Assembly (NCBI GenBank): GCA_030066685.1
Contig: JASJBF010000005.1
Coordinates: 1 to 64,000, forward strand
DNA: 64,000 nucleotides
Direction: 5' to 3'
Origin: Kiloniellales bacterium
GTDB taxonomy: Bacteria; Pseudomonadota; Alphaproteobacteria; Kiloniellales; JAKSBE01
Below, piece after piece: positions 14,359-27,214 of this stretch. A program made the translations under genes and the position numbers. The notes beneath the pieces are model-generated. The model searched no databases and was not told the DNA's origin. It saw only the letters and a program-made list of their open reading frames with translations. Each line of letters begins with the position of its first letter. The stretch's first letter is position 1.

Positions 14359-15303
14359 TTGCTGGTCCTTATTGCCGGCGCGGCGGTGCTGGGCGGGATT
14401 ATCCGTCTCGATCGTCCGGGCCCGCTGCAGGCCGACACCACGGTCATCGTCGAACGGGGCGCCTCGCTGCCGGCAATCGCCGAGGAGCTGCAGAGCGGGG
14501 GCGTGATCGACGACGCCTTCCTGTTCCGCCTCGCGGCCCGCCTCTACCGGGTCAGCCGCAGCCTCAAGGCCGGCGAATACGCCTTTCCGGCCCGGGTCTC
14601 CATGGGCGGGGTGATCGACATCCTGGTCAGCGGCGAGACCGTGATCCGCCAGTTCACCGTGCCTGAGGGCCTGACCAGCGCCGAAGTCGCAGGCCTGCTC
14701 GCGGGCGTCGAGGGGCTGATCGGGGAGATCGACGGCGTTCCGGCCGAAGGCAGCCTGCTGCCCGAGACCTACAACTACGCCTGGGCCGACACGCGCCCGG
14801 AGGTCGTCGGGCGGATGCAGAAGGCCATGGACGACGCGCTGGACGAGCTCTGGCCGACCCGGGCGGAGGACCTGCCCTTCGACACACCGGCCGAGGCGGT
14901 GATCCTGGCCTCGATCGTCGAGAAGGAGACCGGGGTGGCCGAGGAACGGGCCCTGGTCGCCGGCGTCTTCGTCAACCGGCTCAGGCGCGGCATGCGGTTG
15001 CAGTCGGACCCGACGGTGGTCTATGCGCTCACCGGCGGCACCGGGCCGCTCGACCGGGCGCTCCGTTCGCGCGACCTCAGGGTCGACAACCCCTACAACA
15101 CCTACGGCAACGCCGGCCTGCCGCCGGGGCCGATCGCCAACCCCGGGCGGGCCTCCCTGGAGGCGGTGCTCAACCCCGCCGAGACCGACTACCTCTACTT
15201 CGTCGCCGACGGCACCGGCGGCCACGCCTTCGCCCGCACCCTCGCCGAGCACAACAAGAACGTCGCAAAATGGCGCCGCATCCGGCGCACGATCAATCGG
15301 TGA
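14359..15303 (+). CDS. mltG: Endolytic murein transglycosylase MltG
   Basis: Inner-membrane anchored lytic transglycosylase that cuts nascent glycan strands and may set their length. It shows one N-terminal membrane helix, a LysM-like region, and the YceG catalytic domain with Glu190 in SIVEKETG and the NPYNTYGNAGLPPGPI motif. The first standard in-frame start is TTG at 14359, which has no ribosome site and cuts into the membrane helix. Translating upstream gives RIKLWAK before the helix, a natural N-terminus, but only ATC (14320) or ATA codons are available there. The start is therefore unresolved; coupling to the fabF stop is likely. A broken copy of its 3' end lies at 24801. Confidence 0.93.
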   Translation: MLVLIAGAAVLGGIIRLDRPGPLQADTTVIVERGASLPAIAEELQSGGVIDDAFLFRLAARLYRVSRSLKAGEYAFPARVSMGGVIDILVSGETVIRQFTVPEGLTSAEVAGLLAGVEGLIGEIDGVPAEGSLLPETYNYAWADTRPEVVGRMQKAMDDALDELWPTRAEDLPFDTPAEAVILASIVEKETGVAEERALVAGVFVNRLRRGMRLQSDPTVVYALTGGTGPLDRALRSRDLRVDNPYNTYGNAGLPPGPIANPGRASLEAVLNPAETDYLYFVADGTGGHAFARTLAEHNKNVAKWRRIRRTINR

Positions 15304-15465
15304 GGGCGGGTCGGTCTGCCCTTAACTCGTCCTAGAGAACCTGCTCTGCGGCAGCTCGGACCCCGGCCTCGAGCTCCCAATTCGCAATCGTGATTTCAGG
15401 TCCAAGGACGGACAAGGCACAATCCGTGATCGAAATGGTGCTATGATCGCCCGGAGGGAGAGCAA

Positions 15466-24750: not shown

Positions 24751-24800
24751 CGCGGCAGCTCGGCGGCTGATCCAGCGCTGAAATGTGGACCTGGGTCTTC

Positions 24801-24961
24801 CGCGGCCGGGCCTTCCTGGCGACGGTCTTGGCCGGCCGAGACCGGCTAACTTGTACTTCGTCGCCGACGGTATCTGCGGTCACCCCTTCGCCCGGACCCT
24901 CGCCAAGCCCAACAAGAGCGTCGCCGAGTGGCGCCGCATCGGGCGCACGATCAACCGGTGA
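24801..24961 (+). pseudogene. Frameshifted remnant of the mltG 3' end
   Basis: From about 24843 to the TGA at 24959-24961 the frame reads LYFVADGICGHPFARTL onward and matches 28 of the last 36 residues of the intact MltG encoded at 14359, with the same stop position. Just upstream, CGGGCCTTCCTGG and GGCCGAGACC match the preceding mltG sequence, but gaps and one extra base break the frame and create an in-frame TAA. No start or upstream domain remains. It lies about 9.5 kb after the intact gene, same strand, at the border between the sigma54 cluster and the subtilase-like cassette. Confidence 0.85.
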
Positions 24962-25097
24962 GGATCAGTCTGGTAAGGGAACCGGCGATGGAGTTTATCC
25001 TTCTTGGCTCACATACCCTCTGATCGATCGCCGTAGGGCTACGAGCATCCCAGAGGAAGACCCATGTCGCGCCTGCCCTGACCAGCGGTCGAGCCGG
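24962..25097. other. Intergenic stretch after the mltG remnant
   Basis: This gap separates the mltG remnant from the 3' end of the subtilase-like gene. Only very short reading frames occur (for example 11 codons from 24988). No terminator with a T run and no clear repeat was found. Confidence 0.5.
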
Positions 25098-26474
25098 TTA
25101 CCCGGATGGCGCGAGCGGGAGGCTCAGCGACAGGTCGTACTCATCGCAGTAGTTCGGGATCGCCTCCGCCACCTCTGGGGTCAGTACCGTCGGGTCATCG
25201 CCTTCGGTGAGGGCCGAGATCCAGCCCTCTAGCCTTTCGTCGCCCTCATCGGCGAACAGCCGCACGAAGTCCGAAACGCGCATTCGCGCCACGAAACTGC
25301 TCGCGGCGTCCGCGTCCACGAAGCCAAGCCCCCCCGCCGGTCCCGCGTCCGGCATCGGCCGCGCGATGGTCTTGATGAAGCGCAGAGCCGGATTGGTGCG
25401 GAAAGTCAGGTCGACGTCGATACCGTTCGACTTGAAGGCTTCCATAACGGCTCGCTTGTGGTCAAAGCTCGTCTCGACCGTTAAGCCGCCGTATTTCTCC
25501 CTTCGCTCGACTTGGCGCTTGTCGAAAAGCGGCTGGTCGCGGTCGATCGCAGTGTCGACAAGGGCACGGATGTGTGGGGAGACCGCGAAGCGAGATCCCG
25601 TTACGCTCGATAACAGGCCACGCAGGAAGGCTGTGGCCTGGTGCAGCCGACAAAGCGCCACTGAAATCTGCGGCGCGGCGAAGCTTGTGCCTGTCACCGT
25701 CGTCAAGAGAAGGGCGCGCTCTTCGCCGAAGCGCTCGACGAGCTTTGGGTCGGGCGGCAAGTCGGCCTCGTACCGCAGGTCGCGCGTGGTGATGCTATCT
25801 ACGCCCCAGGCGGCAACCAGAAGCCAATCAGCGCTGCGGATGTCGCCTGCCGGTCGGCTTGCCTGTTGCCAAAGGCGCCGGCCAGCTTCGTCGGCGGCAG
25901 TGACGACGGTTGTCCCGGCGCCCGTCGCCCAGGGGTTCAGAAAGCCTTCGGCCGGCCCATCGTTGCCCGCCGGCATCGTCACCGGCACACCCAGCCCGAT
26001 GGTGAACGCCTCGACCGCGCGGCGCACCGTCGCTTCGCCCGTTCGGCGCGGCCGGCTGTTAATCAGCGCTCTCGGTGGCGCCAAGCTTAGATTAATCGAG
26101 GCGACATCGTGGATGCCTGTTCGGATGTAAAGGTGGAGCTGCTCGAGCCGGCCAAGCAACAGATAGATCGTTCTGAGTATCCCGCTGTCGACAAGCTCCA
26201 CATCGCGCACGGCCGGATCGCGGCCCAGGGCTAGAACCGCGTTTGCGGCCGGGGTCGCGAGGACGGTATCGATGAAGGGGTAAGAGTAGCCTTGCCCCCC
26301 GAGGCTCTCCAGTACCGCTGTGCTCTTGTCCTCGGCCGTATGGATCGCAACCGGCACGGGCCGGTTGCCGAGCCGCGAGAGTTGCCGCCGCTCGAGGGCG
26401 TCGAGCACCGCGGCATCCGCCGACGCGGCAGTCAGCGCCATGATCGCCGTAAGCGCAAGACTTGCACGCCTCAC
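25098..26474 (-). CDS. Exported subtilase-like (S8) protein lacking clear Asp/His segments
   Basis: A 458-residue protein with a signal peptide (LALTAIMALTAASADA). Residues about 40-96 resemble an I9-type prodomain (PFIDTVLATPAANAVLALGR, then DVELVDSG). Subtilase landmarks follow: INLSLAPP (127-134), the oxyanion Asn in PAGNDGP (Asn171) and the nucleophile in GTSFAAPQ (Ser264). The usual DTG Asp and HGTHVAG His segments between prodomain and INLSL are not recognisable; only about 30 residues lie there. The last about 190 residues are not assigned. The GTG start overlaps the TGA of the upstream gene (GTGA), so the two are coupled. It may be an inactive binding protein or a strongly diverged protease. 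Confidence 0.75.
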   Translation of the reverse strand: MRRASLALTAIMALTAASADAAVLDALERRQLSRLGNRPVPVAIHTAEDKSTAVLESLGGQGYSYPFIDTVLATPAANAVLALGRDPAVRDVELVDSGILRTIYLLLGRLEQLHLYIRTGIHDVASINLSLAPPRALINSRPRRTGEATVRRAVEAFTIGLGVPVTMPAGNDGPAEGFLNPWATGAGTTVVTAADEAGRRLWQQASRPAGDIRSADWLLVAAWGVDSITTRDLRYEADLPPDPKLVERFGEERALLLTTVTGTSFAAPQISVALCRLHQATAFLRGLLSSVTGSRFAVSPHIRALVDTAIDRDQPLFDKRQVERREKYGGLTVETSFDHKRAVMEAFKSNGIDVDLTFRTNPALRFIKTIARPMPDAGPAGGLGFVDADAASSFVARMRVSDFVRLFADEGDERLEGWISALTEGDDPTVLTPEVAEAIPNYCDEYDLSLSLPLAPSG

Positions 26475-27214
26475 GGCTCTTCTGGCAGCGACACTAGCGT
26501 CGTGAACTGCGCCCTGACGCTGTCCCCTGACCAGAAACTGCCGCCGAAGTTGACGGCGACGTCGAAGTCGCCGATCAGCTCCGGCTCTTGGAGCTTCCGC
26601 GGGACGACGACCAGCAGCTTCAAGGGGATGTTGCCGATCGGATAGCTGTCCTGCGCCCGGTTGAACTGCCAAAAGGCGTGCGTCGAGCCGAAGCCTGAAA
26701 ACACGTTCGCGTAGGCCGGTGCGTAGGTGTAGTTGAACGCGGCGTTGGCTTTGGCGGTGGCGGCGCCTTGAAAGCTACCGCCCGCACCGATCTCCAAGCC
26801 TGCGCTACCCTGGAATGCGGCCTTCTTGAACCCGTTCGGCGGAAACACGTCGATCACGATTGGCTGGAGGGCTAGGTCTTGCGGCTCAGCGAGTGACAGC
26901 GCGACGTCCACGCGTTCGGGAATAAGATCTCCGGACGGCCGTACGCCAATGCTGAACGGCACTATCAGAAAGCGGTGCGTGCGCGACCAGCTTTCGAGCT
27001 GTGCGGCGGCATCACCCTTCAGATCGTCGACCTGGGCGGCGAGAATGCGATCAGGGAAGTAGATTGTGCCTGCCGGCTCGGTCGAAACACCTTCTAGAAC
27101 CGACGGATCAGCGGCGCGCTGTACATCTTCGCGCGTCAGCATTTGGACCGGGATCTCGCTGGCCGTCGCCTGCCCCATTATTGCCCCCGTCAGAATCAGA
27201 GTGAGTAGTCGCAT
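26471..27214 (-). CDS. Exported protein of unknown function, partner of the subtilase-like protein
   Basis: A 247-residue protein with a signal peptide (MRLLTLILTGAIMGQATA). I do not recognise a family. The mature part looks beta-rich with a Gly/Ala-rich centre (QGSAGLEIGAGGSFQGAATA), then aromatic FNYTYAPAY and repeated GNIPLKLLVVVPRK and FDVAVNFGGSF strands. No cysteine pair, lipobox or membrane helix beyond the signal is visible. The ATG at 27214 has GGGAG 9 bases upstream; an earlier TTG is less likely. Its stop overlaps the start of the subtilase-like gene. Codon choice in both genes is less GC-biased than in the flanking genes, suggesting acquisition. Confidence 0.7.
   Translation of the reverse strand: MRLLTLILTGAIMGQATASEIPVQMLTREDVQRAADPSVLEGVSTEPAGTIYFPDRILAAQVDDLKGDAAAQLESWSRTHRFLIVPFSIGVRPSGDLIPERVDVALSLAEPQDLALQPIVIDVFPPNGFKKAAFQGSAGLEIGAGGSFQGAATAKANAAFNYTYAPAYANVFSGFGSTHAFWQFNRAQDSYPIGNIPLKLLVVVPRKLQEPELIGDFDVAVNFGGSFWSGDSVRAQFTTLVSLPEEP

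Follow-up and report, generated by a model that had tools for sequence, protein, structure and literature searches.

P0001, a gene for an apparently exported subtilase-like protein, is probably (about 80%) that of a non-catalytic pseudoprotease kept by selection. Subtilase pseudoproteases known so far (CspC is an example) retain the complete fold, whereas P0001 has lost an entire third of the domain, and the rhizobial copies, without that third, are still selected and are accompanied by a dedicated partner. Such a family would reveal what share of a protease fold is dispensable for a binding function, and would provide a concrete, testable component for the predicted peptidase-NucA/Trypco conflict systems.

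The gene is found on the minus strand at 25098..26474 of the window (the whole stretch of 64,000 nucleotides that was analysed), starts with GTG and forms an open frame of 458 aa, with full-length homologues of 457/458 aa (P0003 and P0005). Its parts, all on the same strand, begin with a signal-peptide-like N-terminus (residues 1-21, VRRASLALTAIMALTAASADA; 26412..26474), read from the sequence and resembling the N-termini of the relatives. Residues 22-98 (26181..26411), ending in DPAVRDVELVDSG, are prodomain-like by alignment with the prodomains of intact subtilases; a profile of four family proteins touches the Tk-subtilisin propeptide weakly (E about 0.6), and isolated prodomain fragments find no match in Pfam. 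A junction of residues 99-126 (26097..26180), in which a helix leads into the N-L-S strand, stands where the Asp and His segments (~95-100 residues) are missing. It is followed by the core strand INLSLAPP (residues 127-134; 26073..26096), recognized from the sequence and by Pfam, by PAGNDGP with the oxyanion Asn171 (residues 168-174; 25953..25973), replaced by VAVGDGA in the rhizobial relatives, and by GTSFAAPQ with Ser264 (residues 262-269; 25668..25691), which reads GSSY or GSSF in those relatives. When the protein was shuffled 200,000 times, INLSLAPP, PAGNDGP and GTSFAAPQ never occurred in this order. A reading made earlier from the sequence alone had reported these three motifs and the prodomain-like sequence, and all are present in the 458-aa frame.

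The same sequence-only reading had left about 190 C-terminal residues unassigned, which holds for the tail (residues 398-458; 25101..25283) but not for the two regions ahead of it, both assigned by alignment. Residues ~290-362 (25389..25607) form a family-specific insertion with a DR..P ... GG pattern, shared with P0003, P0005 and P0007 and not found in intact subtilases, and residues ~364-397 (25284..25385; RFIKTIARPM...GLGFVDADAA) align with the usual end of the subtilase domain, its terminal helix and strand, in intact subtilases and P0007. The only cysteines of P0001 are Cys275 and, in the tail, Cys443; both are kept in the rhizobial copies, a pattern consistent with an exported, disulphide-bearing protein. 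A 307-aa antisense frame (25207-26130 of the window, plus strand) was set aside, its codon-position GC being the shadow of the minus-strand gene and not that of a coding sequence.

The absence of recognizable Asp and His segments, noticed in the sequence-only reading, is borne out by both profile and spacing. Residues 127-283 match positions 114-259 of the 288 in the Pfam Peptidase_S8 profile (PF00082) with an E of 0.0045 and a score of 16.8 bits, under the gathering cut-off of 21.8, and profile positions 1-113, home of the Asp and the His, have no counterpart in P0001. In nine intact subtilases, the His lies 60-69 and the Asp 89-137 residues ahead of the Asn of the N-L-S strand. By this spacing, a catalytic His would be required at residues 59-68 of P0001, whose histidines stand at 45, 114, 122, 278, 301 and 339, and the Asp would have to precede residue 40; because the spacing of intact subtilases is not found, there is no room for either residue. 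The gap between the prodomain end and INLSL is as short as had been stated, and corresponds to the junction. Among the features of active S8 enzymes, Ser264 in GTSFAAPQ and the oxyanion Asn171 are present in P0001, while the D-[ST]-G Asp and the H-G-T His are absent. The sole Asp-like string, VELVDSGI (residues 92-99), falls in the last prodomain strand, 32 residues ahead of Asn128, and may be a vestigial Asp strand; shuffled versions of P0001 contain D[ST]G[IV] in 3.9% of cases and its longer, strand-like version in 0.04%. The relatives carry VFGAG, VFGAS or LHPDE at this site, so that the DSG is not conserved, and the string can form no triad because the His is absent.

A tblastn search of plasmids with P0001 gave the first relative, P0003, a protein of 457 aa annotated as hypothetical on plasmid pRetIE4803d of R. 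etli IE4803 (23.5% identical over 85% of the query, E 5e-17). Patterns drawn from the two-protein alignment were then used to scan 84,980 genomes, and the same two-gene pair was found in Ensifer sp. USDA 6670; its subtilase relative and that of R. etli (457/458 aa) are each ~23% identical to P0001. A third form, P0007 of the Rhizobiaceae genome G750, departs less from the usual subtilases (Pfam S8 E 2.6e-18, 66.8 bits, over the cut-off), and its Pfam match likewise begins at profile position 114, the prodomain running directly into NLSLGPP. Alignment with seven intact subtilases places the same gap between prodomain and N-L-S strand in all four proteins, P0001 included, together with two common insertions, one ahead of Gly-Thr-Ser and one past the Ser helix. 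In a tree of the shared part, which contains several long branches, the four are separated from the other sequences by a branch that has a support of 86/68 and is recovered in 88% of bootstraps, a grouping for which the support is modest. P0001 thus resembles S8 subtilases in its N-L-S strand, oxyanion Asn, Gly-Thr-Ser, terminal helix and strand and prodomain-like N-terminus, and departs from them in the missing profile positions, the sub-threshold Pfam score, the two insertions and the extra tail.

The homologues without the Asp/His segment belong to three independent lineages, and the segment is thus conserved as missing, as the sequence-only reading had proposed to check by homologue search. 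The finding that reading had named as a refutation, relatives with an intact segment and a local deletion in this copy, did not emerge, no relative retaining the segment having been found in these searches. As judged from the alignments, the absence of the segment is shared across the family and reflects neither a pseudogene nor an assembly deletion.

The family is rare among the genomes scanned, in wide scans that scored only a few candidates per genome. No further members were found in 98 related, 385 class, 346 Ensifer-family, 297 Ensifer-order and 378 phylum genomes, nor was the pair found in either of the two same-genus genomes or in the other sampled relatives of the window's genome; searches of viruses, phages and plasmids added only R. 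etli. Weak genome matches (L009-L012) and a match in Paraburkholderia (H2) proved to be unrelated or antisense frames. The scans of the order and the phylum yielded some 45 other loci; the subtilases inspected among these carry Asp/His segments or recognizable variants of them, and a few loci without a Ser motif encode other proteins.

P0001 is the downstream member of an overlapping pair. The partner gene P0002 (26471..27214, minus strand) encodes a putatively exported protein of 247 aa from an ATG at 27214, and its end overlaps the start of P0001 by 4 nt. The R. etli pair has the same organization, a 254-aa exported protein homologous to P0002 (BLASTP E 9e-11) being followed by P0003 with overlapping ends, and Ensifer sp. 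USDA 6670 has a small exported partner of the P0002 type in the same place ahead of its subtilase relative. P0002 has no Pfam match and does not align with P0008, the Trypco2 protein of G750. Its model, of low confidence (pLDDT 47, pTM 0.48), is beta-rich, and its matches in the PDB are pore-forming toxins, cohesins, adhesins and integrins, at query-normalized TM values of 0.40 or less and mostly with large rmsd. Between R. etli and Ensifer, the single pair available for each comparison, dN is 0.064 and dS 0.71 for the pseudo-subtilases (dN/dS about 0.09) and dN 0.065 and dS 0.62 for the partners (dN/dS 0.10); because these ratios are about 0.1, the rhizobial pair is seen to be maintained by selection. 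Purifying selection acts on these copies although they have lost the oxyanion Asn.

Two rival explanations were weighed. According to one, P0001 still cuts, by way of a catalytic site that is rearranged or split and in which Ser264 is joined by residues from other parts of P0001 or from P0002. The Gly-x-Ser kept in all four relatives and the Asn kept in two of them (P0001 and P0007) are the residues that residual catalysis would need and count against the pseudoprotease reading, and the DSGI-like string at 96-99 and the tight linkage of the partner gene could also be enlisted. The four subtilase relatives, however, share no invariant His, nor do the three partners, the DSG is not conserved, and the rhizobial copies have dispensed with the Asn; the rearranged active site that had been offered as an alternative in the sequence-only reading would have no conserved His to rearrange, and we regard it as improbable. 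The other rival sees in P0001 an ordinary subtilase, either decaying as a pseudogene or shortened by an in-frame deletion that arose in assembly, and could explain the Pfam score under threshold and the absence from both same-genus genomes and other sampled relatives. It is nevertheless refuted for the missing segment by homologues of the same length without the same stretch, and as the overlapping gene pair is intact and the rhizobial copies are under purifying selection, we find it very hard to credit. The pseudoprotease reading is the one that agrees with three lineages lacking the segment, with the lack of an invariant His and with the loss of the rhizobial Asn under purifying selection.

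From these comparisons, we infer that P0001 most likely binds or regulates instead of cutting. An exported subtilase would have lost the Asp/His third of its domain, leaving a pseudoprotease that could not hydrolyse peptides and would act by binding. Together with P0002, the product of the upstream gene that overlaps its own, it would form a periplasmic or secreted binding or regulatory unit, and its retained prodomain and substrate-side half may engage an active exported peptidase or the substrate of that peptidase, as an inhibitor, a chaperone or a sensor, perhaps inside a peptidase-based conflict system. An AlphaFold model built on two sequences (P0001 and P0005) reached a pLDDT of 29, too low to be used for or against this fold. 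The nearest described counterparts are CspC and CspA of Clostridioides difficile, subtilase pseudoproteases that act as regulators (PMC6636752). P0001 would be like them a non-catalytic member of the subtilase fold with its prodomain kept. CspC, however, has the full fold and lost its activity by substitution, with Gly485 and Thr170 against the Ser and His of CspB (PMC6636752), whereas in P0001 the segment is absent, not substituted. No pseudo-subtilases of the P0001 kind were found in the open-access literature.

A narrower form of this explanation makes P0001 a trans-acting inhibitor or decoy in which the prodomain does the work and the subtilase remnant is a scaffold. The retention of a prodomain-like region without a catalytic site would suit such a role, as would the intact subtilase in the Ensifer locus, and in Plasmodium a propeptide-like protein is reported to inhibit a subtilase (PMC6993865). 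Against this, conservation extends beyond the prodomain to the remainder of P0001, with the C-terminal tail and the Cys pair among the parts that are kept, and the prodomain is itself assigned by alignment; we consider this version unlikely. In another genome (G1334, L059 740-1096, minus strand), a stand-alone propeptide-like frame of 119 residues lies beside an intact subtilase.

The peptidase neighbours of the relatives support a role for the pseudo-subtilase in peptidase-based conflict, without proving it. In Ensifer sp. USDA 6670, the pair belongs to a cluster (L026 3492-17207) with a NucA-trypsin fusion (Endonuclease_NS E 9e-35, Trypsin_2 E 5e-23), a trypsin, an intact S8 subtilase and membrane proteins. 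The fusion, the trypsin and the subtilase beside the pair are like the System 3 peptidase-NucA conflict systems, which are mostly alphaproteobacterial (Kaur et al. 2020, PMC7159879); the section consulted there names no subtilase lacking Asp and His and no such partner, and the window pair, unlike such systems, stands alone. In G750 (L019 1111-2980), the gene for P0007 is followed after 10 nt by one whose product has two stretches resembling Trypco2, as in modules linked to Trypco2, which is named in that account for its co-occurrence with trypsin-like peptidases (PMC7159879); the partner P0002 of the window has no Trypco2 match. The R. etli pair is flanked by restriction-like genes and transposase-like frames. 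The window pair is alone between alpha/beta hydrolase and TRAP-transport genes, with no peptidase gene beside it and with neither of the NucA endonuclease and trypsin present in Ensifer, so the proposed role in a conflict system rests on other genomes. A regulatory role of the pair in such a system is possible but tentative. The fuller account is speculative: a previously undescribed two-gene cassette, moving laterally, in which the Asp/His third was deleted once in the ancestry of a subtilase and binding was left, and which, with its beta-rich exported partner, would sense or regulate a bacterial conflict system triggered by peptidases.

The third-position GC of the window pair (0.78 and 0.75) is lower than that of its neighbours (0.87-0.93), which suggests that the pair arrived laterally. 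A fragment of 164 nt (24800-24963, plus strand), situated after the alpha/beta hydrolase gene and before the pair, shares 82% identity with the 3′ end of mltG (15141-15305, plus strand) and ends at the stop codon. The intact mltG is found 9.5 kb upstream, and the fragment looks like the duplicated, att-like end of a gene that an integrating element leaves behind. The window's genome also encodes, unlinked to the window, a NucA-trypsin-lamin-tail fusion beside an M6 metallopeptidase (contig C35, L084 5519-9345, minus strand). On contig C18 (L020 7021-9054 and 9393-11402, minus strand), tandem subtilases of 678 and 670 aa match Pfam S8 only around the Ser and have SDSYDC and DEGRAMM in place of the Asp/His segments, a different variant from that of P0001.
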